A DNA stretch of 23,484 nucleotides, from NCBI GenBank assembly GCA_027604185.1, contig JADGKB010000160.1, forward strand, positions 1-23,484. Reading direction: 5' to 3'. A program made the position numbers and the translations under genes. Of this stretch, positions 1,355-23,482 are shown piece by piece. The DNA is from Boothiomyces macroporosus (lineage: Eukaryota; Chytridiomycota; Chytridiomycetes; Rhizophydiales; Terramycetaceae). The notes beneath the pieces were generated by a model. It was not told the DNA's origin. It made no database searches and saw nothing but the letters and a program-made list of their open reading frames with translations. The number at the start of each line of letters is the position of its first letter. Position 1 is the first letter of the stretch.

Positions 1355-4083
1355 ATGCTGGCTGAAGGAGTCAGCGAGCAAAATATCATTGAAGGAGAAA
1401 GAGAAATGACCAATGATGAAAATATTGATGAGCAAAAGAATCCAGAAGTAATATCAAAAGAAAACTCTCAAGAACAGATTCCCGACACCGTAGAACAACA
1501 TGAACAGCAATACATTGACCAGGAAGAAGCAAGGAGAGAGAAAATAAAACAAAAACTACTAGACAGGTCTCAAGTGCCAAAGTCCTATTATACTAATTCG
1601 CCAAGAGAAAATCTAATTCTACAATACACGTAAGTTATATTAATATAGCGAAAACTTTGACAGGCAATACACACAGATATATCCTGGTAGGAAAACATTA
1701 GCCTTACATCTCGAAAACGAATTTGGAATCAGAGTAATTTCAATTAATATAGAAATTTGTCTGTAGTACCATCCGGCCAACCAAATTGCAATTCAATGAA
1801 ATTTACGATTATAAATCATGTGCGGAGTTTGTAGCTGATTTTATAGAGTATCAACCACTGAACCCTTCTCATGAATTAGTAAGCATTTGTTAATCTAGCC
1901 CAAAATGCTGCCTTCACCAACCTACACAGTTGCCCTACAAAGTGGGAATTCGTTTGATATGGCGACATTGCTAGTCTCGCTTTTAATAGGTGTGGGATAT
2001 GACGCATACGTAGTATCTGGATACGCAACAAAGGCGGTTACACTGCTAGATCAGAGTAAAGCAAACGCAAAAGAACTGTACAACCTCGTACCAGAGCCAT
2101 TCAGAGTAAAAAAACAAGATGAAACTACTGAAGAAGTGAAAGCAAATCAAAAGTATAGAGTCAAGCCGCCAAAACAGCTTAAAAGTGCTTTTATAATGAA
2201 GCAAGAGGCAAAGTTAAAGCAGCTTAGAATACAGGAAGAGCAGAGATTAAAAGATTTGGCGATGCTTGTAATTTATACTAATCTAGGACCCTGATATTGA
2301 AGATGAAGATAGTCTTCGCGGTTTACGAATTCATGCCTGGGTACTGGTACTTCCTGGAAAAAGAGAGGTTTCCGAAGCGTTTTTTATCGAGCCAACAACG
2401 GGCAAAGTTCATGACTGCGAGCATGACCAATACCTCGGCGTTGAAAGTGTATGGAGCGCCTCAAATTACTGGGTGAATATGCAAATTTGTTACGACGGTC
2501 TCAAAGGAATTTCATTTGATTTGGGAGATAATGTAAAATGGGAATTTGTTTTGCTGGATAACACTGTTCCTGGACTAAAGCAAAATAAAGACGGTGACGA
2601 TGCAGCATCTGATGACGATGAAGAGGAAAACAAAATTAACGAAGTTGTTGATTTGCCACCCTCCTGGGTTTCAAACATTGACATTAAATTGGATCAGTTT
2701 GAATTGAAATGTCCAAGTGGTGGTAAAACAATTTACTACAAGAATGCGAAAAAAGTAAACTATGCTAAGATAGGAAATATTTGCTAGTTTTAACAGACCA
2801 GACGGCATGGTGAATAGAATCACATTCTATGAAAAGGATAAACTTTACCCGAATATGATTATCGAGATTTATGCAAATAGGAGGGATAAGCTGTTGCATA
2901 GAGTCCGGTTAAACGAGGTTGTGCATGAATTTTTCCATGCTGGTAGGAGCCACGGATTAAAGGAGCATATTATGGTAAATGGAAAGACCAAAGAAATGAA
3001 ATTCTATGGATCAGCTAGGCCTGACGGACTAGTAAATCGAACTGAAGATGTGCGAAAAGTACATTTAGCTAATTTAGGTGATTTTCCTATTCGAAGATCG
3101 CGATGACTTTTTGTGGTACAAGAGTGTTACTTATGAGCAAGTTGAAGTGGATGGAGTAATGACTCGAGGACCAATGATTAAAATGACTGAAAAGTTTCTT
3201 GCAAATCCAGGTTTATACAAACTAAACTAGAAAATACTCTAAAAGATATTGCGAAAAAGACTTACTTTTGGAAAGAAGAAAGAGTACGTTTTTCTAAACA
3301 TAGATCCGTATAAATTTCCATCTTGATCCTGGACGTATTGTTGCCTCCTTGCGAGAATATCGCAAACCGGCTGCGGATCAAAAAGGTCAGATTTTGGATA
3401 TTATCCAAGATTTTGAAGTCGATCCATACCAGAAACCAATGAAAAAGCAACACTTGTTTAGTCAGCTAACTGATTTACTTCGCACCGAACAACAATTTTT
3501 GCAGTCTATCAAAGTATATGAAAGAGAATTGAGTGATATCTTGCAATTACGAGCTGCCGAAGAGCAAGATGTATCTCTAGTTGTTTCAATCTACGACACA
3601 CTAAGAAATGAAACAAAGCTACCGATTGATGACCAAGGTGGCGAAATACATAAAGGAGATGAAGAAAACCAAAAATCAGTTGAAATCGATTACCTCTCAC
3701 CGTTCTTGATCAACTATGAAAACCCAGATAACTTGAGTAAGGAAGACATGGTTTCCATCAAAGATGCTTGTTTGAAATCTCTCCGCGAAAGATTAGTTGA
3801 AAAAGCAAATATAATACAAGGCAGGTTGGATGAAGTCACAGCTGAATATCAAAGAAGACAACTAGCGTACTCTCGAAATGCCGATTCAATGACTGTTGAA
3901 GATACCGAAGCGTATGTAAAGTTCTGCAATGAAGCGTTGTTCAAGATACACATTCTCGAAAAGCGTTTAGCAAAGGTGCTTGATATTTAATGTTAGCATA
4001 AAGAGAGTGCTCCTGAACGATATATTGAGCTTGATGGAAGGTTGCGTTCAGATCCAAGGCTTAGTGCTGCGTTTGGGCAATAA
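1355..4083 (+). CDS. DRC7: dynein regulatory complex subunit 7 (DRC7/CCDC135)
   Basis: DRC7 is a subunit of the nexin-dynein regulatory complex that links doublet microtubules and controls dynein in motile flagella. Exons: 1355-1629, 1649-1733, 1753-1878, 1899-2267, 2287-2754, 2774-3058, 3078-3210, 3231-3283, 3304-3975, 3997-4083. The nine introns are 19, 19, 20, 19, 19, 19, 20, 20 and 21 nt. The spliced product is 850 aa, close to human DRC7 (about 870). Each junction restores frame and family sequence, e.g. KFVCSTIRPTKL across intron 2 and KNAKKEIFASFNRPDG across intron 5. The transglutaminase-like core (SGNSFDMATLLVSLLIGVGY) follows intron 3. A charged coiled-coil stretch precedes intron 4, and the C-terminal third is helical. 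The last intron adds 28 residues (HKESAPERYIEL...) beyond an in-frame stop at 3988. The TAA stop overlaps AATAAA at 4079-4084. The first ATG at 1355 was chosen; the next in-frame ATG is at 1406. Confidence 0.95.
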
Positions 4084-4165
4084 ATTGTATTGTAATAATA
4101 TGTTTTGTGTTCTGATACCTGCCTTTATAGTACTATAGAGCAAATTGGGGGATTCTATTGTTTAT

Positions 4166-5111
4166 TTATAGCTTTAGACCAAGTTTAGGAGGCATAACGA
4201 TATCAGAATTGCGATTGGTTAATGTTGTTCTAGCAGTTGGATCTAGTGTTTGATGAATCTCTGGGAGCTGATATTCGTGCAGCTTTGATTGAATTCTTTG
4301 ATCGTGGTCTCTAATTTCAAAGTCTCTAGAAGCATTAAATTCAACTGAAGCAGTACGCATCACAGTGGTTGGCGTTGAAATGAGGTCCCTAGAGAAATCG
4401 CTTACTGACAAGTTGATTTTTGTTCTTAAAATATCCAAATCTGTATCTTTTTTGTTGGCCAGATTGTCGTGACTGCCAACAAGTGTATTAGAGGGCGAAA
4501 GTGCTTGATCGGTATTGATAGGAGTGGAAATGGGTGGATTCTTTACAATCACTGCTTGGAATTTCTTTTCCAGTTTATCCCATTTTCTTTTAGAGTACAG
4601 ACACCATCCCAGCACAGACAACAATGCAACACAGATAGCGGATACTATTAGTGCTATTATCAATACTTTGCTAGAACCATCACTGGGGCTGGAAACAGTG
4701 GTGGCGGTTGGTGAAGGTAAACTCGTTGTCCATTGTGGAATTTGCAGCTGATTTCCAGGTATGTCCAATGAACCAAAAGTGCCTGAACAATCAGGGTTTT
4801 TATAGCAGTTAACTGAATATCCACAGTTGGAGAAATGGTCTGGTGCGACTGTGTAATTCAACAAAGCACCACTCTTCAACGCACAAAAGTCCTTACCGTT
4901 TCCAAACAGCAAATAATGATCCCTATATTAATTACAGTTACCAGTGCGTACATGCAAGAGTGCTTGAGCAGTTAGCAGAACAGGAATTGACGTCAATATT
5001 GAATCCCTGAGACACGATATTAATAGAGTTGCTGAATGCGCAGTCTTTTGCCGATGACTGAGCTTCTACGATATCAGCCAGAAACGAAACAACTAATGCC
5101 CAGAAGCCCAT
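4166..5111 (-). CDS. PAN/apple-like single-pass receptor protein 1
   Basis: Exons are 5111-4942 and 4922-4166, with one 19-nt intron (GTAACTGTAATTAATATAG on the gene strand). The product is 308 aa. Splicing supplies a signal peptide (MGFWALVVSFLADIVEAQS) and completes a Cys-rich module about residues 24-102 of PAN/apple type (CTHWDHY, then CALK). A short Ser/Thr/Pro stalk leads to one membrane span at about 143-165, a basic stop-transfer (SKRK) and a cytoplasmic tail of about 140 aa ending in ARTTLTNRNSDIVMPP. It is a paralogue of the next gene: the pattern CGYxxxCxxxPxC...LDIxxNxLxIP is shared. It is probably a surface receptor or adhesin; the ligand is unknown. The stop overlaps AATAAA (4161-4166). 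Confidence 0.8.
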
Positions 5112-5201
5112 TCAAAGAATCGCAAGATTTTTTTTAAAGGTTCAGCCCAACCAACCTTTTTGTATTAATTTGGTATACGCGTCCTTGAACAAGATTCTTT
5201 A

Positions 5202-5948
5202 TTAATGTGTAAGTAAAATAGGAGGTTGCTCGTCAGGTATTTCGGACGTAGAGCGCAGTGTAGCTCTTTCTGGTTCATTTTGATTCAATAACAATGGTGG
5301 CTGTATGGAGTTGATAGTAGAGCTTTCCGTGTAAATAGGAAGTCTAGGTTGATTATTTAATTCAGAATTATGAATATAAACAGTCTGCTGGGGATGAGGA
5401 AATTCACCAGATTCTGGGCTGGTTCTAATTTCCACGGTTTTCAAGCTTTCGTTGCCACCAGATTCATGGTTCGAATTGAATTTAATTGTGTCTCTCTTTT
5501 CGAGTTGTATTGGTTGCTCAACTACCTTGTTCCTTTTAAATAGCCAAAATGAAATACCAACAGTAGCTAATACCGCCGCAACTATTCCGATTACAATTCC
5601 AATTGGAAAGGACCTTGCTTGATTATTTCCGGGAATGTAGAGGAGATTATTGTCTATATCAAGGTTGGAAAATGAATTATCGCACTTTGGACTGGTGGTG
5701 CATTTTGCATCGTAACCACATTCAGAGCCAGTGATGTTTGTTTGGTAGCCTAGCAGGTCATCCTTGAATAAATGGCAGGTAGAATTGTAATGTGCCCAGT
5801 GCGTACAAGTTGTAGAAGCTGTGCAAGACGCAATGCATCCGTCATAGCCCAGACTGGTAAGAGTATTAATTTCATTTGATTTGGAAGTAAATTTGCAGTT
5901 TGTTGCCATTATCCGTCCGTGAGTTGGAGTCAGTAGTAGGAAAATCAT
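5202..5948 (-). CDS. PAN/apple-like single-pass receptor protein 2
   Basis: Intronless, 248 aa. Reading in the same frame continues upstream to 5996, but 5948 is the first ATG and gives a short hydrophobic start (MIFLLLTPTHG), a weak but plausible signal peptide. The Cys-rich PAN-like module spans residues 17-90 (GCIASCTASTTCTHWAHY, CHLFKDD, SECGYDAKC), parallel to its neighbour. The membrane span is about 116-137, followed by FKRNK. The tail carries QPRLPIY, IQPPLLL, ERATLRSTSEIP and QPPILL. An A-tract element (CCCAAAAAAGCTGAT on the gene strand) lies about 85-105 bp upstream. The stop overlaps AATAAA (5198-5203). It is likely a surface sensor from a local duplication; ligand and partner are unknown. 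Confidence 0.8.
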   Translation of the reverse strand: MIFLLLTPTHGRIMATNCKFTSKSNEINTLTSLGYDGCIASCTASTTCTHWAHYNSTCHLFKDDLLGYQTNITGSECGYDAKCTTSPKCDNSFSNLDIDNNLLYIPGNNQARSFPIGIVIGIVAAVLATVGISFWLFKRNKVVEQPIQLEKRDTIKFNSNHESGGNESLKTVEIRTSPESGEFPHPQQTVYIHNSELNNQPRLPIYTESSTINSIQPPLLLNQNEPERATLRSTSEIPDEQPPILLTH

Positions 5949-6556
5949 AGCAGTTTTTGGAAATGGCTGGTATTTTAACTGGAGATGGCTTAGCAACCAA
6001 AGAGCACCGAAAAGTTAAAAATCTGTAGACAGGATCAGCTTTTTTGGGCTGGGACAAGCACTGGTAACGGTATTGTAATTTTATTTAACTGTTGAATGTA
6101 CCTAACCGTCTCTCTAGTTTGATGCTTCTTTTACAAGATTGATTTGTAGAGGCTCAACACATTTCCAGAACGTGAATAATTTTTAGACAGAAATTGGGTG
6201 AAGATGGCTCTAGTTGAAAAGAAGGTTTACATTATTACTTTTCTAAACCGCTCGCTGGGAATTGGTGTTTGATTCACGAGAAATTTAACATTATCAACTG
6301 TTGTGAATGAGTAACAGTCTGTTGATCTTTCAAGTAGTAGGCACCAACTTTTTGCGATAATCACCTAAAGTGAAATGTTAGCCCTTAGTGTTGAGTTTTT
6401 ATGGATATTACCTAACGGTAATCAAGAGAGTACAATCCGACCAATGCCAACGCAAATTCAACTAGTCTATTTATTGACCTTTATCTAAAACAACTCGTGT
6501 TCAAAGTGAATTATATACCATCGTAAGAATTGGTGTGTCAATATTTTGAACGACAA
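5949..6556. other. intergenic stretch
   Basis: About 600 bp between two minus-strand genes. Positions 6033-6053 hold the A-tract element upstream of the PAN-like gene at 5948. I found no ORF with a credible start, no short-intron signature and no RNA gene in the rest. Confidence 0.5.
6033..6053 (-). promoter_or_regulatory. A-tract promoter-like element upstream of PAN-like gene 2
   Basis: On the gene strand it reads CCAGCCCAAAAAAGCTGATC. A very similar string (GTGCCGAAAAAAGCTGAC) precedes the LRR gene at 13078-13095, and a TATA version (CTATAAAAAGGCTGAC) precedes both Cys-rich genes. Conservation at several unrelated starts suggests a core promoter or activator site. Inference only. Confidence 0.4.
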
Positions 6557-6778
6557 TTAAAGCGGACTTGCTTCTATGTTTACAATGACTGGTTGGTCCA
6601 ATACACACACTTTACTCGTTATCCTGCATGTACGACACACAAATAGAAATATCGCTACTATACAAAAGCATACTATAAGGTATTCAACCAAGTAATCTAC
6701 TCCTGAATCTATATTAGACAGCTCGTTGCTTATCGTTGAAGGGGAGGCAACTACTGTCGATGTTGGCAGGGAATTCAT
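6557..6778 (-). CDS. small single-pass membrane protein
   Basis: A 73-aa ORF from the ATG at 6778. The N-terminal 28 residues are Ser/Thr-rich (MNSLPTSTVVASPS...), followed by a hydrophobic segment about 30-48 (YLVEYLIVCFCIVAIFLFVC) and a short tail ending DQPVIVNIEASPL. No signal peptide and no family were recognised. An A-tract (GTGCGACAAAAAAAGAGGC, gene strand, near 6851-6869) lies about 75-90 bp upstream and resembles the element before other membrane-protein genes. It could be a small real gene or the remnant of a larger receptor whose ectodomain was lost. Confidence 0.4.
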   Translation of the reverse strand: MNSLPTSTVVASPSTISNELSNIDSGVDYLVEYLIVCFCIVAIFLFVCRTCRITSKVCVLDQPVIVNIEASPL

Positions 6779-7091
6779 TTTTATTCTTCCTGGAAATATT
6801 TGGAAAGCGTTTTCAATATCTTTCAGCCATTAAAGTTGTGGTGTCTTGAAGCCTCTTTTTTTGTCGCACATCATTTCTGAAATCATAAAAGTATTTTTTG
6901 GCTTTTATAAGGCTACGTGATGACTTGTATCACTTGTACGTGTTTAGGAATACTTTGATCGCGTACTGGCAGAGTTTTTGATTTGTACCAGTATCGTTAA
7001 TACCAGCTCTTCAAGTATCCTAACCCTATGCAAGCTATTGTAGATCTAAACCTTGCTTCTTTGGAGTTTCATCCCACCAAATTTTTTTGCA
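6779..7091. other. divergent promoter region (small TM gene / Maf)
   Basis: About 310 bp between divergent start codons. It contains the A-tract near 6851-6869 on the minus-gene side and CCTAACCCTATG (7019-7030) about 62-73 bp upstream of the Maf ATG. No other coding signal was seen. Confidence 0.5.
7019..7030 (+). promoter_or_regulatory. telobox-like CCTAACCCTA element upstream of Maf
   Basis: CCTAACCCTATG lies about 62-73 bp upstream of the Maf ATG at 7092. The same core lies about 80-97 bp upstream of the Csm1-like start in the same orientation relative to its gene (17365-17383). TTAGGG-type elements are known promoter sites for telobox-binding factors in fungi. Use here is inferred. Confidence 0.35.
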
Positions 7092-7680
7092 ATGCAAATT
7101 GTCCTGGCTTCTGGCTCACCTCGTAGAAAAGAGATTCTGGAAAGACTAGTAGTCGGTAATTAATCAGGGATTAGAATTTACTGTTCAAGTATCGGATTTC
7201 CCAGAAAACTTGACCAAAACGCTCCCACCACACGAATACGTACTACAAACAGCTACAGCTAAAACCCAATCGGTATACGACTTGAATCAAAGTGCTCTAG
7301 TAATTGGAGCAGATACGGTAGTCGTGCTAGATGATCAAATACTAGAAAAACCAAGCTCAAAAGATCATGCATTTGAAATGCTGAAGAATCTATCCGGAAA
7401 GCCGCATTTTGTATTAACTGCAGTTTGTCTAATTAAAGAGGGCAAAATACATTCATTTGTAGAACAGACACTGGTTACTTTTGGCGAATTGAGCGATCAA
7501 GAAATTTTGGATTATGTTGCTACTGGAGAGCCAATGGACAAAGCTGGCGGATATGGATATCAAGGATTGGGCTGTACACTAGTGAAAAGTATCGAGGGCT
7601 GCTACTACAATGTTGTTGGACTACCAGTTTACAAACTCGTCCAGCAATTGAAAGCCCTTGGAGTCGAGTTTGGGAAATAA
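7092..7680 (+). CDS. Maf/HAM1-like nucleotide pyrophosphatase
   Basis: Exons are 7092-7148 and 7168-7680, with a 19-nt intron GTAGTCGGTAATTAATCAG. The product is 189 aa, the usual Maf length. Maf proteins hydrolyse dTTP, UTP and modified nucleoside triphosphates to monophosphates and pyrophosphate, as house-cleaning enzymes; fungal and animal versions are cytosolic. Visible motifs: the N-terminal substrate loop SGSPRR (7-12), the catalytic-Asp segment GADTVV (66-71), KP at about 80, and YVATGEPMDKAGGYGYQG. Without the intron the SGSPRR exon would be missed. The TAA stop overlaps AATAAA (7676-7681). No ASMTL-type methyltransferase fusion is present. Confidence 0.93.
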
Positions 7681-7806
7681 AACTTGTTCTGATGTAGTTC
7701 ATGTTTACGTGTGACATTTTCTTTTGGTTGAAAAGACCAAGAGGTCTCTTTGTCACATTTCAGCGGGCTTTTTTCACCTTAAATACCACCAGAACTGCCA
7801 TTCACC

Positions 7807-8715: not shown

Positions 8716-8762
8716 AATATATTTGATTTTATACTTGATTTTATAGTTATTGGAGGGAATCT

Positions 8763-9124: not shown

Positions 9125-10123
9125 ATGACTCAAAATCCCGTAGACCAACACTCTGAGCTAAGCAAGCTACGACGTATGATTGAATTTGCTTCGATCTGTC
9201 AATTCTTTCAATTATTTATGGAGACTTATGGATACGAAGATTTAGATTCTGAAGTACCTCAAGTTAACCTAGACTCTGGAAGATTTAATAATCAACGACC
9301 ATGATTCGCTAAGCAATTTGATTTTCAAGCTCCTGAAAACAGCGACAAAGAACCGGATTAGCAGACTGTCAGTTGATACGCTTTTATATTACTGTTCAAG
9401 GGAATATCAAAAAGTATTGCTTCCACAACAGTATCCTTACGAATACAACCCAGAGTTGAAAATCAAGGACTTGTCTCTGCGGCAAAAAGTAATGTCAAAT
9501 TAACTGCTGGTTTTACTGTTACATTTCTTGGTTGAGTATCAGCTGGAAGATCCAATGCATTTCAGACAGATTACAAAGTATCCGCAAGATCAGCAAATCA
9601 ATTGGCGTGTATTGCCATTTGGATACGATAAAATCCATACGTTCTGGCTCTTTGATGGTATTTCAAACTAACAAGACTCTCGGTTATTTAAATCCTCAAT
9701 AACGAAAAAGACTGAAATTCAAACCAATGGATTAAAGCTGAAAATCAAGTCGCAAGAACCGGTTACAAAGTGGGAGCCAGTGTGTATCACGGAAAGCGAT
9801 TGGTTGGGCATAGTGGAAAAGTTCAAGGATAGCACTAATAGAAGAGAAAAAGATTTACATCAGCGACTAGTCAAAGTCTTACCGCTAATACTACGAGATA
9901 TCCAGGTAAGATTAGCTAACTGTTGAATAACAAACAACATAAGCAAGAAGTTAGGGAAAAAAGAGAACAGCAAGAGTTGCAAGAATTAAGAAAGATGCAA
10001 GGCCAAGAAAAACTTGAACGCAGTTTGAGGTCTAGAAAGCGGCGGTCAGAAACACCTGATGAGCCAAAGAAACGGAGGGAAGCGCTACCTAAAGATGTTT
10101 TACATCAATACCCTCAAATCTAA
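9125..10123 (+). CDS. DDT/WHIM-domain chromatin-remodelling accessory protein (RSF1/CECR2-like)
   Basis: Proposed exons: 9125-9253, 9273-9488, 9507-9657, 9676-9905 and 9923-10123, about 308 aa. Relatives are non-catalytic partners of ISWI-type remodellers in the nucleus. The DDT-like region starts at FASICQFFQLFMETYGYEDL and continues across intron 1 (19 nt) into TLEDLIINDH. The segment KLVLLHFLVEYQLEDPMHF parallels RSF1 KLALLKYLCECQ, and the WHIM/WSD segment is LPFGYDKIHTFWLFDDSRLF, formed across an 18-nt intron. The C-terminus is a highly charged helix with KRRKR-type basic patches, perhaps a nuclear signal. Introns 2 (9489-9506) and 4 (9906-9922) appear to end in TG. A canonical 38-nt alternative (9906-9943) exists for intron 4. 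The final exon has no recognised domain. Confidence 0.72.
9489..9506 (+). other. putative non-canonical GT-TG intron (18 nt)
   Basis: GTAATGTCAAATTAACTG. Its removal joins LSLRQK to LVLLHFLVEYQ, which matches the spacing in the RSF1 family (K-LALLKYLCECQ). A GT-AG alternative of 48 nt (to 9536) also keeps frame but deletes that conserved helix. A single missing A (TAACTAG) would restore a normal 19-nt intron, so an assembly or sequencing deletion is possible. Confidence 0.5.
9906..9922 (+). other. putative non-canonical GT-TG intron (17 nt)
   Basis: GTAAGATTAGCTAACTG. An intron is needed because the exon-4 frame hits TGA at 9924. A 17-nt excision ending in TG gives LNNKQHKQEVREK. A 38-nt GT-AG excision (9906-9943) gives QEVREK directly. 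The ending TAACTG is identical to that of the putative intron at 9489, which favours the short form, but protein homology is too weak here to decide. Confidence 0.35.
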
Positions 10124-12198: not shown

Positions 12199-13070
12199 TC
12201 ATTCATCCCCAGGGATTTTTATATCTGACATTCTAACCGTAGCCTTTCTGGCCAACTCTGGTATCGCATAGTAACTTTTGTTTTCTTGCCTGAGATTTTG
12301 ATAGATATCCAATCTAGGCTGTACTGGTTCATATTTGACTAGTTCTGGCGGATCATTTATTTCAGATGGTCCTTTGAACGATTGAACTGGTGCTCGCTTT
12401 TCCTTTTTAGAATAATACAAGTAGCCTATACAACCAACTAGAAATATAATCCCGCCTATAATGGCTCCAATTAGTCCTATGCTTATTTTGCTGGATGATT
12501 GTCCTGAAGGAACGTCTGATGGGGTAGCGGTTGGAATGACGATCCCATTCACTAATGAAGGGCAGACGTTTGCAGCACAAGCAGGGATAAATGCCGCACA
12601 TAGATTGGAAGGGAATGGACAAGTACTGAACTGTGTGTTTGCATAAGCGATTGGAATTGTACCAGTAAAATGATTCCCATCAAGCACAAGGGTAATCGGA
12701 GCCGAACTATCTGAAGCATTATAAAAGTGGATAAACGGTATTTCTCCCGTCAATTGGTTATTGCTCAACACCAGTGTTGTAAAAGTCTGAGGAAAGGGAG
12801 GAATCGATCCAGTGAGTTTTGTATTTATAATCTCCAGGACTTGAAGAGACTTTAGCTGCTCTAATTTCAATGAAATTGATCCATGTAAATCAAATCTGGC
12901 TCCGTCCAGTAATCTACGTCAACACTAGAGTACATCTTGGCTATTTGTTGGTTGTCTGGCCGGCAGAATACCACAGTAGGATCCCATGTACAGCAATTGG
13001 ATTCGGTAAGGGTTGCATTGAATCCGCCCATTTCATTGAATGCCTGCACAAAAGTCGAACAATCTGTCAT
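12199..13070 (-). CDS. leucine-rich-repeat single-pass receptor-like protein
   Basis: Exons are 13070-12934 and 12913-12199, with a 20-nt intron GTACTCTAGTGTTGACGTAG. The product is 283 aa. The N-terminus looks like an LRR cap (DCSTFVQAFNEMGG, CCTWDPTVVFC). Plant-type LRRs follow (LKSLQVLEIINTKLTGSIPP, FTTLVLSNNQLTGEIP, LVLDGNHFTGTIP), then a Cys-rich end (about 144-163), a Ser/Pro stalk, a membrane span about 190-212 and a basic stop-transfer (YYSKKEKR). The tail carries QPRLDIY and ARKATVRMSDIKIP, similar to the PAN-like protein 2. No signal peptide is encoded: I found no ATG upstream of 13070 for nearly 200 bp, although the cap begins right at the start. A leader exon may be missed or lost. 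The stop TGA overlaps AATAAA (12194-12199). Confidence 0.8.
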
Positions 13071-13250: not shown

Positions 13251-15128
13251 TTATTGTAGTCGCATTAGAGGACGAGATGTTTTCGAAAAAACTATCGCTC
13301 CAAGAAGCAGAAACCCAATCGCCAAGCCGGCATTTGCAGCAATAGATCCCCAAAGATCTGGATTGTCAAACCCATAAGCGTTAATGACACTAGGACCATC
13401 CTTGAAGCACGGCTGCTTGGTACAAGCAAATACTGCGTTGGCATTAAACTCATTCTGTGATAGTGCTTTCATGGTGTATGTAACAAATGAAATCCACTGA
13501 ATCCAACGCAAATATACTGGCACAGTGTTTAGATTTAGAATTATTCCAGAAAACAGCACGAAAACAACTAGGACCATCGGAGTTACAATCAGTCCAACCG
13601 ACGTGTTTGGTACAGCAGATCCAATAAGCAATCCCATACTGTTTGCAGTAAACGCTTGCAGGAATAGGATGAATATAAAGATGAAATAATTTTCCACGTT
13701 ATTGTACAATCCAATTATCCAGTATATCGGCCCTCCAACAAGGCACGCAACAACTACAAGCATTGGCAATGTAGATACCACTTTTGCAAAGAAAGCCGAA
13801 GTTGAGCGATAAGACCCTGCTGCTCTCTCCCTTTTGATCAATCTCTTGGTCTCTGGAAAAGCGTTGATGATTGGAATAACATTTCCAAAGGTAAAGGTCA
13901 TTCCCAGAAACAAGAAGACACCGATTCTGTTTTGAATACCTGCCATATCATCTGAAATGTTGGCATAGAGCAAAGAAATCAGTACCAGGTTGATTATGGC
14001 TTGTGCAAGCGAGGCTAAAGATGTTGATCTATCTCTAGCCATGTTAACCATGTATCTATGCAAAATAACATAGAATTCGCCAAGCCAAGGTGATGGCCAC
14101 TTGATCCGACTATTTGAATGTTCAACTTCCAGCAAAGTAGTGGTAGATGGCTGCTGGATACTCTTGAATGCATTTTCAAATATTGCAATTCGTTTTAAAG
14201 ATTCTTGGCGCTGTTCATCTCCCCTCTGGTCAATAGTGATGATATCAATAAAGAAATCACTAGGATTGGTTTCAAGAGGCATTTTGTATCCCAAGTTTTC
14301 AAAGTGGACTATCGCGTCTTTGTTAGCAAAAATATACCGGCGGTGGAGCCAAACCACATGGTTTTCCCAACAGAAAGCAGCATTATCTTGTCAAACTGTT
14401 TCAAAATATCAGTTCTCGGTTGATGGATAGTCATTAGAATGAGCTAATATGAAGGAAAGTTACCTTGTTTTCTCGTTTTGCAAGCTCTTTTAAAGTCTTG
14501 ATTGTATTAAAGGCATTAAAGGCATCTAATCCAGAAGTGGGCTGTCGTTAAAAATGATTACCTCATCTAGGAAAAGAATGTGCGGGTTGGTAACGAGTTC
14601 AATTCCGATTGCAACACGTTTGCGTTCACCCCCACTGATTCCTCTATCGAGCTCATCGCCAATCTGCGTGTTTTTACATTCTGAAAGGCCCAGTTGCTCA
14701 ATGACAGCATTGACTCTGGACTCTTTTTCCGCAATTGACATTGTGCTTGGCAATCGCAGTAACGCAGAATATCTAAGAGTTTCAAACACTGTAAGCTTCT
14801 TGAATAGTATATCATCCTGTTCTACGTAAGCACATTGCAAGGCCCAAGTGGAAGGATTCCTGGCTTGACCATCCAGCATAATTTTCCCAGATAGAGATCC
14901 TGCACCAATTCGCCCAGCCAAGACATTCAACAAAGTAGTTTTCCCTGCACCTGAGCCTCCCATAATCGCTATGATTTCCCCAGCATTAATTTGACCAGAG
15001 ATGCTGTTTAACAGCATCTTTTCCTTCTTGTCCACTTGAACACCAAACGATACATTTTCCCAAGAGAATTGCTTAGCTTTTTGGGCATTCTCGTGGGATA
15101 TCATAATTTCAACGTCCGTTTTTGTCAT
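13251..15128 (-). CDS. ABCG-type (White/half-size) ABC transporter
   Basis: Exons: 15128-14562, 14541-14464, 14443-14338, 14317-13251. Introns are 20 nt each (14542-14561, 14444-14463, 14318-14337). The product is 605 aa, normal for an ABCG half transporter acting as a dimer. The ATPase domain is N-terminal: Walker A GGSGAGKT (57-64), signature ISGGERKR (about 164-171), Walker B ILFLDE (184-189) continuing across intron 1 into PTSGLDAF, and the H-loop TIHQPRTD after intron 2. The C-terminal half has six predicted spans and an extracellular loop with two cysteines before the last span, as in the family. Splicing is required: unspliced frames lose DEPTSGLD. The substrate cannot be inferred (lipid, sterol or xenobiotic). 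The stop overlaps AATAAA (13250-13255). Confidence 0.93.
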
Positions 15129-15448: not shown

Positions 15449-16399
15449 TTATATTTTAACTTTATTACGAGCACACCCCTCTGTGGTAGAAGGTAGTTGG
15501 GTAGTGATATTGCTGTCCATCATGCTATTTGATGCTGCATCCACTTTGGTCAAATTAATTTCCCTGATATATTTAAACATTAGTGTGAGAAAAAGAATAT
15601 GCCCCATTCCAACTACTTCTCCGATTATCCTATATCAGTGAATAAATACGCCAAGCTTTTGCTCCATACTCCATTCATAAACCATGCAACTACCCAAATG
15701 GACCCAGATATCCAGTCAAGGCAAATGCAAATAATAACCAGATAGAGAAATCTTTTCGCAGAGTGAATATTTTTTGCTTTTTGCCTCCCTAATTTCATAT
15801 CCAGCATTTTTACGAGTGTGCGTGACACGAATATCGCATGAAAAGATTCATAAACTAGTTAGCAAACAAGTACTTGTACACAAAACAGCAAAAGCAATAT
15901 AGCCATACGTGTCCCATAACAAAAGATATTTAGGTCTTTGTTGTCCCAGATTATAGCAACTCGCGTATACCCCAAACACGGATACAAAATGAAAGACAGT
16001 ATACACTTTTTGAAATTGCGATATCCTCTTTTCATCAATAATCTCTCCATAAATAACAAACTTTTTTAAAATATCTAGCTGCCCAAGAATAACTAGATAT
16101 AGCCCAATTGCTCCTAGTGTATTCAATAGATATACCAAGAATGGCGAAACGTACTGTGAAGACCGCAGCAATACAACCGCCAGATATAGCAATAAGATAA
16201 AATTGATTGTGCAAGCGAAATAGAATATCTTTTGCTTTAGTTGGAACCATCCTCTGTACAGCAAAATATTGAATGCAAGTGACAGTATCAGATATATAAC
16301 AGTTACTATGAATGCAAATACACATATTGGATTAGAGAAATCTAGACTGGATTCAATTTTCCCATCGAATCCATACCCTATCGAAAATGGTCCGACCAT
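15449..16399 (-). CDS. seven-transmembrane protein of unknown family
   Basis: Exons: 16399-15874, 15854-15650, 15629-15449. The introns are 19 nt (GTACTTGTTTGCTAACTAG) and 20 nt (GTATTTATTCACTGATATAG). The product is 303 aa. Both introns are needed: unspliced, the product loses spans 6 and 7. Seven hydrophobic segments in order: ICVFAFIVTVIYLILSLAF, IFYFACTINFILLLYLAVVL, FLVYLLNTLGAIGLYLVILG, VYTVFHFVSVFGVYA, YGYIAFAVLCTIYESFHAI, FLYLVIICICLDWISGSIWV and VVGMGHILFLTLMF. The N-terminus is short without an obvious cleavable signal. The topology fits a G-protein-coupled-type receptor, but no diagnostic GPCR motif was recognised, so function is open. A TGACGTCA (CRE-type) palindrome sits just upstream of the ATG. 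Confidence 0.8.
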
Positions 16400-16401
16400 G
16401 A

Positions 16402-16409: not shown

Positions 16410-16482
16410 AAAACTTTTTGTTGATAAAGTAATATCTACAATCCAAAGCGTCTCTACTCTGAACGTTGCCTAGATAAACTAA

Positions 16483-16556: not shown

Positions 16557-16571
16557 TTTAAAAAAGGATCA

Positions 16572-17286
16572 TTAGTTTATTGAAGATAAAATATTAAAAA
16601 AGAATTTCGGCAACATTCCATTCTCAAATTCAATTTCATTCTGCAAAAACTCTACTTGCGGTGGATTAGCAATAGGTTCGTACAACGTGCTTTCTCCTTG
16701 ATAGATTTTGAAACTGAAACCTAGATTAAATCCAATTACTTTTTAATTTACATGTAAAGCAATTGTACTCGCGTTCTTGATTATTCATATCCGGCCGTTT
16801 GATTTTTTCAATATTAGTAACAGTCAAGAGCGAAAGATGTTCAAACAAGTCAATTACAGACTCTAGTTTGTTTGAATATTCAGATTCCTTTTCGTGCTTT
16901 TGCTGATAGTCTGTATTAAGCCAAAGAAACCTTTTGCAATGTTTTTCAAGCTTTCATTAAACTCTACCTGCTTTTTGCTTTCTAATTTCAGCATTTCGAC
17001 TTCTTGTTTCAGCACAGTTATTTGCTCCATCAGATCTAGTTTGATATTTGGTTGTTCAATCAGTTGCTGCTGTAAATCTTGGTTTTCCTTGACTAGTTTG
17101 TCGATAATCTCTTGGTAATCTGTTGGTTTGTCTTCAATCTTTGGTGGAATGTTTTTGCTTAGCTCCAGTTCCTGCAAGACCTTTTTAGGCGAAACAGTTT
17201 TTTCAAGCGGTTCAAAATTATCGATAATATTTTCTGGTTACTTTTTTCTTACCCTTCTTTTTAGATGCCCGCTTTGGTTTTGTCAT
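16572..17286 (-). CDS. Csm1/Pcs1-like monopolin subunit
   Basis: Exons: 17286-17253, 17233-16931, 16910-16740, 16720-16572. Introns are 19, 20 and 19 nt (17234-17252, 16911-16930, 16721-16739). The product is 218 aa. The first exon encodes only MTKPKRASKKK, a basic nuclear-type start. Residues about 48-135 form a heptad-rich coiled coil. The C-terminal about 80 residues match the Csm1/Pcs1 globular fold (FTCKLKSFSFKIYQGESTLY, EPIANPPQVEFLQNEIEF, NGMLPKFFFNIL). In yeasts Csm1/Pcs1 acts at kinetochores or rDNA to orient sister chromatids. All three introns are needed to reach this domain. Residual uncertainty: other kinetochore coiled-coil/RWD proteins have a similar layout. Confidence 0.72.
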
Positions 17287-17364
17287 TTTGAGATTACTTT
17301 TTTTTTCTGTCCAGCCTCTTGGATGCTTGTGAATGAATCTGTGGTCATCAAAGTGAGGTTTAAA

Positions 17365-17383
17365 TAGGGTTAGGGTATTAGGG
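17365..17383 (-). promoter_or_regulatory. telomere-like CCCTAA motif upstream of the Csm1-like gene
   Basis: The + strand reads TAGGGTTAGGGTATTAGGG, about 80-97 bp upstream of the Csm1-like ATG. It is an imperfect three-unit TTAGGG run, too short to be a telomere remnant by itself. The same CTAACCCTA core stands about 62-73 bp upstream of Maf. Confidence 0.4.
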
Positions 17384-17515
17384 AAGATTATAGAAGCTGT
17401 AACATGTGGTCAGAGTTTATCCAGAGAACGTAATTACTTTTGCGTAATTACTTGGCGTAATTTTTTTATTGGAAAATATTTGTTTAGTGTTGGATTGTTA
17501 AAGTATCGGATGGTT

Positions 17516-18097
17516 TTATTGCAGGGAAACAAGCTCTTTTTGAATGTTTTCCCTTGCCTTGGCTTCATCAAATATTCCAGAGAAATAGATTCTCTCTCTC
17601 TTTAAAAAGTTGCTCATCACTGCGGTTCTCCCCGTTATGTAATCACTGTCCGAATACCGAGAATATTCTTTTCTTATTTGCAAAGCATAGTCATTCCAAT
17701 ACTTTTCGTAGTCCCAACTTAGGACTTCCAAATCAAAATCCAAAAAGTACTTTAGATCTTGATCGTCATTGATTAGCGAATGTTTAATTGTAGCTAAAAT
17801 ATACTGCTCTGCTATCGTACAATCTTGATCAGTTCCGATCCATTCTTTTAATAATCTCGCAGAGTTTAGTTCATTATCCTTGGATTGAGGATCATAAACA
17901 ACATCATGAAACACTACGGCAAGAAATACAGCTCTAGCGTTGGAGAATTTCGATTTGTGTTTGTTAAATAACTCCAGGAGTCTAAACAAATGACTGGTAG
18001 TGTGATAATACCGCTGCGGCTCACTATATTGCTCTATAACACTCTTGTAATTTTCACTCCCGATATACTCTTTCCAATATTGGGTGAAAATGTCCAT
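17516..18097 (-). CDS. predicted metal-dependent HD-superfamily phosphohydrolase
   Basis: Intronless, 193 aa, from the ATG at 18097. It matches the COG4339-type family of small HD proteins. Visible: W8, YSEPQRYYHTTSH (24-36) supplying the first metal-binding His, VVFHDVVYDP with the HD pair at 64-65, DNELNSA (74-80), and IKHS followed by a DFDLEVL segment with acidic metal ligands. The exact substrate of this family is not established. The start is fixed because W8 and the YxEPxRxYH block sit close to the N-terminus in relatives. It diverges from RMT2 with only 19 bp between ATGs. The stop overlaps AATAAA (17515-17520). Confidence 0.85.
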   Translation of the reverse strand: MDIFTQYWKEYIGSENYKSVIEQYSEPQRYYHTTSHLFRLLELFNKHKSKFSNARAVFLAVVFHDVVYDPQSKDNELNSARLLKEWIGTDQDCTIAEQYILATIKHSLINDDQDLKYFLDFDLEVLSWDYEKYWNDYALQIRKEYSRYSDSDYITGRTAVMSNFLKRERIYFSGIFDEAKARENIQKELVSLQ

Positions 18098-18116: not shown

Positions 18117-19150
18117 ATGGAAATTCAGCAATATCTTTCTACTTTACAACCGAATACAAAAATTACACCAGAATATCAGGAATTGTTGAAAAATACAGAA
18201 AACATTATTATTGACGGATCCACACTATTGCATTTGGCAGCCAAAACTGGAAACATTGAAGCCTGTTCCTTATTGATTCAGTATGCTAAAATCCCGTGGA
18301 ATTCATTGGCAAACAACAAATCAGTTGGTAAATCGTTCTAATGCAGGTGAAATTGCAATGGAGAATGGTCATGTGGAATTGTATGAATATCTAGTAGACA
18401 CTGGATGTCGCTCTGAATTCATTCTATCTTTACTGGGACAAAAGATTGTTGAAGACGGAGATGTAATTGAAACTAAAGATAAAATAGTTGCAAACCAGGG
18501 ATACCTGAACCGCAAGCTATTTTACTCTGAAGGAAAACTTTTGGATAGCGACGGTAACGCAGTAATGATGGGATGGGAAACTCCGCTAATGAAGATTCAC
18601 AGCAATATTATTTGCAAAAAAGGAAAAAAGATTCTCAATGTTGGATTTGGATTAGGAATTATAGACACGATGATTCAAGAGAGCGAGCCTACTCTGCACA
18701 CTATTATCGAAGCACATCCCGACGTTTATCAAAAGATGGTTGATGATGGCTGGACTACAAAGCCAAATGTAACTGTATTATTTGGTAGATGGCAAGATGT
18801 ACTACAAGACTACCAAGAAACTTTTGACGGAATATTCTTTGATACATTTGGCGAGTACTATGATGACTTGCACGATTTTCATCAAATACTCCCAAATATC
18901 TTGAATGAAGATGGAGTTTACACCTTCTTTAACGGACTGTGTGGTAACAATCGTTAATATAGGAACCAATCAGTTCTTTCACGATGTCAGTTGCCGTATA
19001 GTTGAATTGGAATTGAGAGAAATTGGATTTAATGTAGAGTTTGAAGAAGTCACCGTTGATGAATTGGGTGATGATGTATGGAAAGATACAAAGAGAGCCT
19101 ACTGGAGTTTACCAACCTACCGAGTGCCTACAGTTACTTTTGACTTTTGA
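18117..19150 (+). CDS. RMT2: protein arginine N-methyltransferase 2 (Rmt2 type)
   Basis: Exons: 18117-18327, 18347-18943, 18963-19150. Two 19-nt introns (GTAAATCGTTCTAATGCAG and GTAACAATCGTTAATATAG). The product is 331 aa, shorter than yeast Rmt2 (412). Yeast Rmt2 makes delta-N-methylarginine on ribosomal protein L12. Ankyrin-type repeats occupy about 33-90 (GSTLLHLAAKTGNIEA, GEIAMENGHVELYEYL). The methyltransferase follows: MGWETPLMKIHS, SAM motif I ILNVGFGLGIID (166-177), acidic IIEAHPDVY (190-198), FGRWQDVL and FDGIFFDTFGEYY. The C-terminal YWSLPTYRVPTV is typical. Both introns restore frame in conserved sequence. An in-frame ATG at 18090 would overlap the HD start, so 18117 is preferred. 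The TGA stop overlaps AATAAA (19150-19155). Confidence 0.94.
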
Positions 19151-19273
19151 ATAAACTCTAACCCTATATAATGGTGCTTAACTATTGGTAGAATCGTGAA
19201 GGCATTGTTGTGGAGATAGCAATTGAAAAACTAGGCTGAATAATGTTGCTTTATTCAGAATAATTGGGCATTT

Positions 19274-19669
19274 CTATTGATGGCAGAACTCTGCAACACA
19301 TGCAGCTTGGGCGGCAGTAGATGCAATAATTGCAGTTGCACATGCACCATCAACAATAGGAACAAACAATCCCAATACGCAAGCCCCTCTAATTGCAGTT
19401 GCACCACCAACACAATATCCAAAGGCCGGTTGTTGGCAAGTAATGGGTTTGGTAATTATTTCCTTCCACTGAGCACACCCACAGACACCTTTTTGTTCTC
19501 CCCCACAATCACGTTCAACACAACCATAAACGCAATTGGTCCAGTTTTCACGCGGAGGAGGACAGCGTTGATCCGGAATGGTGTTCAAAGCAGTAAGAGT
19601 AGTGTTTGATTCAACAAATGCGGTGCAGAGACCAGAAAAGACTGCGACAATCAAAAAGTTTAATTTCAT
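19274..19669 (-). CDS. Cys-rich secreted protein, copy 1
   Basis: Intronless, 131 aa. Signal peptide MKLNFLIVAVFSGLCTAFVES. The mature part of about 110 residues has 12 cysteines, including NCVYGCVERDC and GVCGCAQW, and two N-glycosylation sequons (NTT, NWT). The C-terminal third is Ala/Gly/Val-rich and hydrophobic (GLFVPIVDGACATAIIAST). No family recognised; it looks like a small disulfide-stabilised exported protein, possibly wall-associated or an effector. A TATA-like CTATAAAAAGGC lies about 23-34 bp before the ATG, implying almost no 5' leader. Identical in sequence to copy 2. Confidence 0.75.
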   Translation of the reverse strand: MKLNFLIVAVFSGLCTAFVESNTTLTALNTIPDQRCPPPRENWTNCVYGCVERDCGGEQKGVCGCAQWKEIITKPITCQQPAFGYCVGGATAIRGACVLGLFVPIVDGACATAIIASTAAQAACVAEFCHQ

Positions 19670-21187: not shown

Positions 21188-21228
21188 AGGCTGAATAATG
21201 TTGCTTTATTCAAGATAATTGGGCATTT

Positions 21229-21624
21229 CTATTGATGGCAGAACTCTGCAACACATGCAGCTTGGGCGGCAGTAGATGCAATAATTGCAGTTGCACATGC
21301 ACCATCAACAATAGGAACAAACAATCCCAATACGCAAGCTCCTCTAATTGCAGTTGCACCACCAACACAATATCCAAAGGCCGGTTGTTGGCAAGTAATG
21401 GGCTTGGTAATTATTTCCTTCCACTGAGCACACCCACAGACACCTTTTTGTTCTCCCCCACAATCACGTTCAACACAACCATAAACGCAATTGGTCCAGT
21501 TTTCACGCGGAGGAGGACAGCGTTGATCCGGAATGGTGTTCAAAGCAGTAAGAGTAGTGTTTGATTCAACAAATGCGGTGCAGAGACCAGAAAAGACTGC
21601 GACAATCAAAAAGTTTAATTTCAT
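21229..21624 (-). CDS. Cys-rich secreted protein, copy 2
   Basis: 131 aa, identical in amino-acid sequence to the product of 19274-19669. The two coding differences (21340 and 21403) are synonymous third-position changes in Gly and Lys codons. The same signal peptide, 12 mature cysteines and TATA-like upstream element are present; one upstream base differs (21643). Function unknown. Confidence 0.75.
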   Translation of the reverse strand: MKLNFLIVAVFSGLCTAFVESNTTLTALNTIPDQRCPPPRENWTNCVYGCVERDCGGEQKGVCGCAQWKEIITKPITCQQPAFGYCVGGATAIRGACVLGLFVPIVDGACATAIIASTAAQAACVAEFCHQ

Positions 21625-22456: not shown

Positions 22457-22997
22457 GCAATGCTATTTAGTTTATGAGTTATTTGCGGTGCGGAAATCAG
22501 GGTTAAGGTTATGATTTAAATTTAATGGGAATTAACTATCCCTAAATTCAGGTGACGTTTGATAAATTGGGGTTATGAAAGTGGTATTCTAATTAACAGC
22601 ACTTGCACGAGATCTGATGTTTACTTTGTCGACAATGCCAAAATACATTGACAAGGTTGCTCTGTAAAATCTGAATGATCAGTCTTGTTAAAGTAGTTCA
22701 TAGGGTTAAACCTTATGGACTACTTCAGTGCAGTAATAGCGCATCAAATGAAACCCTATTTGTGATAATTTAATTGTTATATTTTGGCATTTACTTTTCT
22801 ATATTTACTCTCTATATACAGTTCTCGAATGCTCGCAGGCTTTCGAGTTTCCACGGTCTCGTTATAACTCACTTCCCTTGTGAACTAGACGTGCTCGTAT
22901 AATTCACCAGTGTTATGTATCGCTAAAAATCCTGTCGCTTTTTTCTCTCCCATTGCCACTATAATAGCGCAAATAAATAATATATTGAATTGGTTTT
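22457..22997. other. intergenic region in repeat copy 2
   Basis: Same content as 20502-21042, including the hairpin at 22691-22725. It serves as the 3' flank of both the CxxC gene (+) and the convergent gene at 22998-23482 (-). Confidence 0.5.
22691..22725. other. near-perfect 17-bp hairpin, copy 2
   Basis: Identical to the hairpin at 20736-20770, between convergent genes (CxxC gene ending 22456, minus-strand gene ending 22998). Confidence 0.7.
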
Positions 22998-23482
22998 CTA
23001 ATCGCTGGTACGAGCCTTTCTTCTTTTCAAAGTGTTGTCTTGTTCCTTCAATGAGTCCTTTGATATGACAGATGGTAAAGACGGTTCTGACACAGGTGTC
23101 TGATGAAACTCCAAATGATCCTGACATGCCTGCGACTGCTTCACTGGCAAACGTGAGGAGGAATACAATGAAGTCAACGTATCTATAAATCTAAACACAT
23201 AATTCATTAAATCTTCCTCTACTATTATTAACAATTACCATACTTTTGTCCTTCAGTCAAATATTCTTGCTTCGAGTGTAAATGGTTGTAAATGTCAATT
23301 CCAGGAAGACCATAGTATTTTTCCCATTGTGCTTTAGTTCTTTTGTAGTAAGTTGAGAATGATAATGGGCAATTTTCAAGCTCTTCAATCAATTCATCGA
23401 GTGATGTTTCTTTTAAAGATTTTATATATAGACGAAGGGAATCCAGTTGCCTTTGCTCTTCTGTTCCTTCTAACTGATTCAT
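22998..23482 (-). CDS. uncharacterised 154-aa protein
   Basis: Exons are 23482-23239 and 23218-22998, with a 20-nt intron GTAATTGTTAATAATAGTAG; a 17-nt form ending at the first AG also keeps frame and adds one Val. The ATG is two bases from the window edge, so an upstream extension cannot be excluded. The product begins MNQLEGTEEQRQLDSLRLYI, is helical and acidic in the first third, and ends in a basic KRRKARTSD tail. It contains no signal peptide or membrane span. No family recognised. Most of exon 2 lies within repeat copy 2. Confidence 0.55.

Follow-up and report, generated by a model that had tools for sequence, protein, structure and literature searches.

The window analysed here is a stretch of 23,484 nt of chytrid nuclear DNA, and the question that it raises is whether genes in such a genome are interrupted by spliceosomal introns of only about 20 nt and, if so, whether these form a class across the genome. 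An initial annotation had listed 25 GT...AG intervals in ten gene models, and all were recovered exactly as listed (one of 18 nt, 13 of 19 nt, 10 of 20 nt and one of 21 nt); 22 of the 25 were returned by a motif-guided gene finder.

Support for individual introns

The gene for dynein regulatory complex subunit 7 (DRC7; 1355..4083, plus strand) encodes 850 aa after removal of nine introns, and the spliced product is 84% identical to that of Boothiomyces sp. JEL0866 and 82% identical to that of Terramyces sp. JEL0728, which makes the source a chytrid close to Terramycetaceae. All nine junctions are crossed gap-free by Boothiomyces or Terramyces protein, which bears out the conservation that had been claimed across them. 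The introns, all on the plus strand, lie at 1630..1648 (19 nt; likely branch A at position 14, with 5 nt after it), at 1734..1752 (19 nt) and 1879..1898 (20 nt), which match the two ends of a segment absent from the Terramyces annotation, at 2755..2773 (19 nt), which matches an end of a segment absent from the Boothiomyces annotation, at 3059..3077 (19 nt) and 3211..3230 (20 nt), identified by the gene finder and by comparison with the relatives' DRC7 annotations, and at 2268..2286 (19 nt), 3284..3303 (20 nt) and 3976..3996 (21 nt), identified by the gene finder and by protein alignment. All four segments missing from the Boothiomyces and Terramyces DRC7 annotations have an end at an intron identified here. 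The Globomyces annotation likewise lacks four segments, but of their eight ends only one falls near such an intron (1.3 residues), which counts against a wider group sharing these introns.

Protein domains span several other junctions, as had been expected for Maf and ABCG. The intron of the Maf gene (7092-7680) at 7149..7167 (plus strand, 19 nt) is spanned by the Pfam Maf domain (residues 2-182), and in the ABCG transporter gene (13251-15128, minus strand) the ABC_tran domain (residues 40-192) spans the junction at 14542..14561 (20 nt); this gene also contains introns at 14444..14463 (20 nt), which has no YTRA motif, and at 14318..14337 (20 nt), returned by the gene finder. An ankyrin-containing gene (18117-19150) has plus-strand introns at 18328..18346 (19 nt), spanned by Pfam Ank_2 (29-91), and at 18944..18962 (19 nt), called by frame and motif. 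The putative "RMT2-like" label of this gene is the name used in the initial annotation.

Frame and motif were the basis for the minus-strand introns at 4923..4941 (19 nt; these two features only) in a gene for a secreted or transmembrane-looking protein (4166-5111), at 12914..12933 (20 nt) in an LRR-TM gene (12199-13070), at 15855..15873 (19 nt) and 15630..15649 (20 nt) in one gene for a multi-pass membrane-like protein, and at 16911..16930 (20 nt) and 16721..16739 (19 nt) in a coiled-coil-like gene (16572-17286); the remaining intron of the last gene (17234..17252, minus strand, 19 nt) was called by frame and has no YTRA motif. The weakest of the 25 is the interval in the terminal gene (23219..23238, minus strand, 20 nt), which lacks YTRA where this motif normally lies and whose frame could equally be kept by an intron of 17 nt. 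The description of the acceptor side as a nearly fixed YTAAY was too strict, this motif being present in 17 of the 25, and is better put as a strong preference, since 22 of the 25 carry YTRA where it is expected.

The statement that no longer intron was required fails for gene 9125-10123. Removal of the plus-strand intervals 9254..9272 (19 nt) and 9658..9675 (18 nt), called by frame and motif, restores its frame, and two further breaks are not fitted by GT-AG introns of 18-21 nt. With GT-AG ends these breaks need introns of >23 nt (shortest 48 nt; last break 29 or 38 nt); alternatively, both could be closed by introns of 20-21 nt with a TG end. A Pfam search of the two competing models returned no domain match for either. 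A GT-TG intron class, considered because both breaks carry TAACTGYTG, was rejected, as it showed no excess in a 200-kb sample of the genome (a count of 9 summed over the four lengths 19-22, with a background of ~4.5 per length).

Extent and geometry of the short-intron class

Spacing and gene-finder tests were run on this 200-kb sample, drawn from 20 other contigs. The distance from GTA to YTAAY(n1-3)YAG peaked at 19 (33 occurrences), 20 (40) and 21 nt (32), with 0-11 at each of the remaining spacings between 10 and 79 nt. A finder that joined open reading frames with neither motif nor length preference called 24 GT-AG introns of 19-22 nt; when three wrong dinucleotide pairs were used instead, it called 3, 3 and 1. 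The guided finder was trained on introns that had been called in this sample, decoys were scored identically, and gene models scoring <5 were dropped before counting; of its 239 calls, 235 measured 18-23 nt (mode 20) and 4 were longer, and six wrong pairs of terminal dinucleotides gave 22-49 calls vs 236 for GT-AG, an excess of about five- to tenfold. Lengths of 18-21 nt, the ultrashort range of nucleomorphs, were found for 211 of the 235. Conserved protein was also joined across junctions: COPB2 is ungapped across five junctions in its first ~420 residues, UBE2S is ungapped over 153 residues with five junctions crossed, and Prp8 and GID4 are likewise joined.

A GT followed ~20 nt later by an AG, with a branch-like word close by, is frequent by chance, as the 22-49 decoys per 200 kb illustrate, and chance joins, pseudogenes or assembly errors might in this way mimic tiny introns in broken genes. 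Such an origin is extremely unlikely in view of the size of the GT-AG excess and its single sharp length mode, the gap-free joining of COPB2, UBE2S and GID4, and the ends of the four missing DRC7 segments. The class first proposed for the window, spliceosomal introns of ~20 nt predicted throughout the nuclear genome of a fungus, is supported by de novo spacing, by unguided and guided finding with decoys, by conserved proteins, and by U2, U6, Prp8 and a U2AF large subunit encoded in the same genome.

The short introns could be real and introns of 40-200 nt be equally frequent, overlooked by a finder tuned to short ones. Isy1 apparently needs a 46-nt intron (read by hand from the DNA, in agreement with the Boothiomyces and Globomyces proteins), and in gene 9125-10123 one intron of about 38 nt and another of 48 or 54 nt may be required. 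With both classes allowed, however, GT-AG calls of >23 nt (4 of 239) were at the level of long decoy calls (4-8), and the models of DRC7, COPB2, UBE2S and part of Prp8 need no long intron; equal frequency is therefore highly unlikely, and a small minority of longer introns probably exists. A candidate class of ordinary long introns alongside the short one was rejected on these counts, and within the sampled 200 kb the length tabulation contradicts the alternative, named in the initial annotation, that most introns are of ordinary length. AT-AC ends gave 9 calls at 17-23 nt vs 78 for GT-AG and the donor is loose past GTA, so that the introns do not qualify as minor (U12-type).

We put at roughly 0.93 the probability that U2-type introns of 18-23 nt are almost the sole introns in the nuclear genome of this chytrid, near Boothiomyces and Terramyces, and that each is spliced inside one ~20-nt footprint. 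The typical unit opens with a donor GTA(A/T)(T)T, carries YTRAY as its branch site and ends in an AG usually 5-6 nt past the branch A. A YTRA motif was found in 204 of the 235 sampled introns and was missing from 31, and among the 204 the putative branch A lay at position 14 (79), 15 (95) or 16 (21) in 195. The likely branch adenosine, as located by motif, is close to the acceptor, as had been claimed, usually 5-6 nt before the end of the intron.

Spliceosome components and known ultrashort introns

The initial annotation had also proposed an unusually compact spliceosome geometry and an inspection of U2, Prp8 and U2AF for adaptations, which was carried out. U2 is present in two copies carrying GUGUAGUAUC, with GUAGUA in both genes; U6 is present with ACAGAGA, and Prp8 is encoded in the same genome. 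The U2AF large subunit matched profile positions 168-505 of 510, with a score below the curated cut-off and the match split by introns. Cwc25 starts MGGGDLNLKKSWHP and keeps the glycine plug MGGG. Isy1 was found, and the clade's version starts MAPKTLAQKQE vs a MARN-like start in most aligned relatives, its first exon boundaries being uncertain. An Rfam scan of about 241 kb gave no match to any family, U1, U4 and U5 included. In a midpoint-rooted Prp8 tree, built by a quick method from the best 120 of 552 homologs minus 8 near-repeats and on its own a rough guide, the query fell inside a fungal clade, with ascomycete rows outside that clade. The compact geometry is real, and no loss accompanies it in the few core parts examined, U2, U6, Prp8, U2AF65 and the Cwc25 glycine plug all looking ordinary. 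This suggests that ~14 nt from donor to branch site and ~5 nt to the acceptor may be feasible with no visible loss in U2, U6, Prp8, U2AF65 or Cwc25.

Short DNA elements of uniform length that are eliminated from the genome occur in other organisms, and the gaps described here, being short and uniform, could in the same way be insertions removed before transcription (as are ciliate internal eliminated sequences) or regions bypassed by the ribosome. We regard this as most improbable, since the gaps have GT and AG ends (236 calls vs 22-49 for decoy ends) and a U2-complementary branch motif at a near-fixed position, spliceosomal RNAs and proteins are encoded, and the host is a chytrid; DNA elimination of the ciliate kind is not known to us from any chytrid. 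Under splicing, U1 and then U6 would occupy the first ~6 nt of the intron, and U2 would pair with the branch site beside the U1- or U6-bound donor. Because the acceptor AG is so near the branch site, it could be found with no search, and a polypyrimidine tract would be unnecessary. Splicing would proceed by intron definition within one ~20-nt footprint. From sequence, we infer both excision from the mRNA and this order of recognition.

As known cases of introns this short, a chlorarachniophyte nucleomorph (Bigelowiella natans is such a species) and some ciliates had been named; lengths there are indeed similar, and the list was incomplete. In the available portions of the sources, mikrocytids (16-17 nt) belong to it as well, and chlorarachniophyte nucleomorph introns measure 18-21 nt (PMC10245619). 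The nucleomorph shares with this chytrid a narrow length range and many introns (PMC10245619), but is a relic endosymbiont nucleus, whereas here the genome is of 15.2 Mb and belongs to a fungus that keeps the flagellar gene DRC7. As described in the accessible text, the heterotrich ciliate Stentor coeruleus has introns of 15-16 nt, the commonest beginning GUAAUU, with the branch A at 10-11 and a weak branch consensus; its Cwc25 glycine plug is lost, its Isy1 N terminus has diverged and all snRNAs are retained (PMC9505925). Both are nuclear genomes of non-endosymbionts with AT-rich GT-AG introns, and many introns here also start GUAAUU; the chytrid differs in its longer introns, its branch A at 14-16 within a clear YTRAY and its retained Cwc25 MGGG. 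Mikrocytos has 224 introns and the mikrocytid spliceosome 17-19 identified proteins, according to the same portions of the source (PMC10245619). Mikrocytids and the chytrid share introns of conserved sequence that vary little in size; in the chytrid, in contrast, 235 introns were called in 200 kb alone, and the few spliceosome parts examined look ordinary.

Introns of ~20 nt would place this chytrid among the organisms with the shortest introns known. Earlier ultrashort introns came from relic nuclei, from giant ciliates and from parasites whose spliceosomes are stripped down, so that their shortness was readily ascribed to reduction or to ciliate oddity. Should its relatives prove amenable to culture and transformation, the lower size limit of splicing could become testable in a fungus. 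Introns of <30 nt were left out of at least one large survey, according to the available part of its text (PMC10639083), and since the DRC7 annotations of two relatives drop segments at exactly these introns, errors may be present in part of the chytrid proteomes and intron statistics published so far.

Back-to-back introns and tiny exons

Zero-length-exon intron pairs, a five-unit array in an ING gene and a 3-nt exon in UBE2S are new relative to the initial annotation. Pairs of complete introns abutting as AG|GT gave 13 matches in the genome vs none for a reversed-pattern control. The 13 matches fall in 11 arrays, ten of which were examined, the 11th being a duplicate of the C20 array in which the matched letters are identical. 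The longest array is that of the ING gene, with five units in series. Arrays span 38-101 nt in total, as expected from adding up units of 19-22 nt, and every unit has its own donor, branch site and AG. Pairs 3 nt apart were also in excess (8 vs 0 in the reversed control, three of them on contig C103; 1.7 expected per spacing), so that close pairing in general is enriched, beyond zero spacing alone.

Similarity between array partners was assessed on 12 pairs from the 13 matches, with the duplicated C20 copy used once; 4 of the 12 reached rank P < 0.05 against random introns, and the overall value (P = 0.007) was driven by contigs C8 and C92. On C8, two adjoining units are identical.

Because a unit would be complete in ~20 nt, tandem copies could each be removed in turn, and such complete units are in keeping with zero-length-exon arrays and with the occurrence of at least one exon of 3 nt. 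The arrays might instead be excised in one step as introns of 38-101 nt, their inner splice-like words being incidental. The mRNA product would be identical either way, and the genome may contain a few introns of around 40-50 nt; calls of single introns between 24 and 200 nt are nevertheless at decoy level, the array lengths sum from units that are each fully equipped, and the C8 neighbours are identical. We consider one-step excision possible but somewhat doubtful. Unit-by-unit removal is part of a broader account, to which we give even odds, in which the intron behaves as a minisatellite-like unit: slippage would add a whole intron beside the old one, and the copies (up to five) would be spliced singly and then diverge, introns being gained by duplication at no coding cost, with the spliceosome fixed at a ~20-nt footprint though its examined core parts are ordinary. 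In the head-to-tail arrays, intron gain through duplication of units could be viewed directly, and recursive splicing could be tested on its smallest scale.

In the portions of the sources available, recursive splicing at zero-length exons in animals serves large introns (PMC5126111, PMC2773006), and in fungal stwintrons a splice element of one intron houses a second intron (PMC8469720). The chytrid arrays resemble the former in that AG and GT are juxtaposed, so that removal of one intron would create or uncover the donor of the next, but their steps are of 19-22 nt, with as many as five units in series; they resemble stwintrons in combining several introns at one site, but head to tail and not nested in a splice element.

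A relaxed tandem pattern gained little (16 matches vs 2 in the control). For a METTL-like triple array, the PDB alignment begins downstream of the junction, which was placed by restored frame. A structure search with the ING array gave no PDB match; its junction is spanned by the Pfam ING domain.

Extent of the short intron class

The 25 GT-AG introns of 18-21 nt called by the initial annotation in ten genes of the window were all confirmed on extraction to start with GT and end with AG (1 x 18, 13 x 19, 10 x 20 and 1 x 21 nt). When supplied with the motif, a gene finder that had learned from this genome's long ORFs recovered 22 of the 25; two further introns restore the frame of the gene at 9125-10123, and the last, located where the window ends, is weak. 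The acceptor side had been described as nearly fixed on YTAAY; that branch-site motif was present in only 17 of the 25, and what held more widely was YTRA with its A at position 14-15 counted from the donor (22 of the 25). The statement that no longer intron is required had to be dropped, as the 9125-10123 gene contains two breaks with no GT-AG solution shorter than 24 nt. Candidates for these breaks include introns of 48 or 54 nt and of 38 nt; alternatively, they may hold 20-21 nt units that end in TG, with the usual branch position and the shared context TAACTGYTG.

Intron lengths were tabulated in a sample composed of bases 20001-30000 of 20 contigs (200 kb) of the assembly (15.2 Mb, 216 contigs, the window lying on contig C160). 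In a count that used no gene models, the spacing between GTA and YTAAY(n1-3)YAG had a sharp peak at 19-21 nt (33, 40 and 32 occurrences), and the remaining spacings between 10 and 79 nt had 0-11 occurrences each. An unguided finder, in which ORFs were joined by GT..AG of 10-200 nt with neither motif nor length preferred, called 24 GT-AG introns of 19-22 nt, versus 3, 3 and 1 when the wrong terminal dinucleotides TG..GA, GA..TG and CT..AC were supplied as decoys; at other lengths there was no excess (34 GT-AG calls versus 43, 46 and 42 in the decoys). When motif scores were weak and all lengths were weighted equally, lengths of 17-23 nt accounted for 78 of the 116 GT-AG calls, compared with 2-9 for five decoy pairs. 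In runs that took their scores from introns called in this very sample and left out gene models scoring under 5, competition between a short and a long class gave 235 introns of 18-23 nt (2, 55, 97, 57, 17 and 7 introns of 18, 19, 20, 21, 22 and 23 nt, respectively), spread over 117 genes and 149 kb of coding DNA; calls longer than 23 nt numbered 4 for GT-AG versus 4-8 for long decoys, and short decoys yielded 22-49 calls versus 236 for GT-AG. A TG-ending intron class was unsupported in the 200-kb sample.

This tabulation, 235 introns of 18-23 nt against 4 longer ones, agrees with the genome-wide class proposed initially. Judged from sequence, U2-type introns of ~20 nt are very probably (about 0.93) the genome-wide and near-exclusive class in this chytrid; scaled to the size of the genome, the total would be very roughly 14,000-18,000 introns.

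Protein evidence, relatives and precedent

COPB2, whose gene holds five introns of 19-20 nt, aligned to a solved protein ungapped over the first ~420 residues, and UBE2S aligned ungapped over 153 residues with five junctions inside. A tblastn search with Prp8 returned a 7-codon insertion with a stop, located exactly at a 21-nt GT-AG unit; two more Prp8 units, of 21 and 22 nt, were read by hand and lean on the human sequence.

Boothiomyces is classified in Chytridiomycota, Rhizophydiales, Terramycetaceae, and chytrids of the Boothiomyces/Terramyces type are soil or pollen saprotrophs. The spliced DRC7 protein of the window was 84% identical to that of Boothiomyces sp. JEL0866 (100% of the query covered) and 82% identical to that of Terramyces sp. 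JEL0728 (97% covered), with other chytrids next. A quick, midpoint-rooted Prp8 tree placed the query in a 15-row clade with Gonapodya and two mushrooms (SH-aLRT 99); ascomycete rows were placed elsewhere, so DRC7 is a better guide than this tree, which is rough. The deposited Boothiomyces DRC7 is without three internal segments and the Terramyces DRC7 without one, and in all four cases one or both ends of the missing segment lie no more than one residue from an intron of the present set, which counts as independent evidence from relatives; the pattern is absent from the Globomyces DRC7 annotation, where 1 of 8 missing-segment ends is near such an intron. In the Terramyces annotation DRC7 is fused with a Maf domain. 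In the window, Maf is a separate gene that follows DRC7 on its strand at a distance of 3 kb, so such a fusion is consistent with annotation software unable to place tiny introns.

Two papers (PMC10245619; PMC9505925) describe narrow ultrashort classes of 18-21 nt in a nucleomorph, 16-17 nt in mikrocytids and 15-16 nt in heterotrich ciliates. Among the matches listed for the open-licence chytrid and aphelid literature, titles and abstract starts gave no description of such introns in a fungus, and notice elsewhere is possible; a check by term of three papers on chytrid-related subjects (PMC13391722, PMC9926174, PMC10608142) found no discussion of intron length. A survey of minor introns excluded those under 30 nt (PMC10639083). 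The ~20-nt introns are a known kind in a new, informative place.

Geometry and splicing machinery

YTRA was present in 204 of the 235 sample introns, with its A at position 14 (79), 15 (95) or 16 (21), and absent from 31; among the 204, the A is followed by 5 (91) or 6 (79) nt. The donor reads GTA(A)(T)T; at +5, T (45%) is more frequent than G (just 17%).

The initial annotation had proposed an inspection of U2, U2AF and Prp8. Both U2 snRNA genes (C80:60682-60874 and C178:9607-9797, which share a similar 5' part and then differ) carry a normal branch-recognition stretch, Prp8 is conserved, and the U2AF large subunit was matched over profile positions 168-471 and 466-505 of 510, under the family's curated cut-off because introns split the match. 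By eye, its translation also contains a YWD motif and an RS stretch. One U6 was found, with ACAGAGA. The introns leave no space for a normal polypyrimidine tract, though the U2AF large subunit is present; in human short introns SPF45 can replace U2AF (PMC8363638). Cwc25, matched twice with the same gene models (C49:3542 and C100:5137), starts with MGGGDLNLKKSWHP and keeps the glycine plug, whereas PMC9505925 describes its loss in Stentor. Isy1 (contig C39; L041:1225-2104 in the stretch taken from it) was 91% identical to a Boothiomyces sp. JEL0838 protein over the whole query, and 98% in a multiple alignment. Its N terminus is unlike the usual MARN-like start and is common to Boothiomyces; its first exon is difficult to delimit, and two introns near the N terminus may have just 1 nt of exon between them. 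A 46-nt intron, read by hand, is needed further on. The size limit would be set by side-by-side packing of donor and branch recognition, and on our reading ~20-nt introns do not require loss of the core parts examined.

Head-to-tail arrays and other features

Two complete ~20-nt units joined AG|GT with nothing between were matched 13 times in the genome, versus 0 for the reversed pattern and 1.7 expected under independent placement. These matches represent 11 arrays, two being copies of one gene; after extension the ten different arrays hold two to five units each, L024 being counted as two since its third, script-added unit lies on a poor motif inside a conserved domain. The ING array (C92:40574-40674; L036:1462-1562) comprises five units in 101 nt, and the BRE (C8:114397-114453; L028) and METTL-like (C6:28632-28688; L004/L026) arrays three ~20-nt units each, all with zero-length exons. 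Removal of the whole array left the downstream frame open in 10 of 10 different arrays; at OGG1 it stays open even with the array left in place, so only homology speaks there. A family or structure spans the array junction in GID4, OGG1, Tctex-1, BRE and ING, as do a weak match in transportin (E 6e-6) and the Sos7 family with a score below its cut-off; for the METTL-like, L033 and L034 junctions the basis is frame. The OGG1 tandem match occurs twice with the same matched letters (C20:66642 and C20:111709), and this doubling, with that of Cwc25, suggests segmental duplication or uncollapsed haplotypes.

Units 1 and 2 of the C8 array are identical and unit 3 is close; adjacent array units resembled each other more than shuffled partners did (P = 0.007), an effect carried mainly by C8 and C92. 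Because single introns of array length were not above decoy level, excision unit by unit would be the simplest reading. Tight pairing is not limited to zero spacing, since unit pairs 3 nt apart numbered 8 versus 0 in the control. In UBE2S a 3-nt exon lies between two 20-nt introns (L011, minus strand, offsets 5941-5984 of the reverse complement), and the residue completed by it keeps the alignment ungapped. No earlier description of zero-exon tandem arrays was found in the open-licence literature, among the matches listed, in titles and abstract starts on zero-length exons, intron duplication and microexons.

At C103:2842, 3722 and 31115, an identical 3-nt stretch, ACC, lies each time between two intron-like units of 19-21 nt; the three loci may belong to a gene family in which a microexon is repeated. 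Within the window, a 300-nt direct repeat (19233-19532 and 21188-21487; 99% identical, spacing 1955 nt) continues, by eye, beyond these limits, so that about 1.95 kb carrying small cysteine-rich ORFs would be duplicated in tandem. By eye, the proteins encoded at 4166-8715 and 12199-13070 form a cluster and resemble secreted membrane proteins with a single pass, their exteriors being LRR or rich in Ser/Thr and their tails short. Pfam identified an intronless BRAP2-type RING/UBP zinc-finger gene at 10280-11794 on the minus strand.
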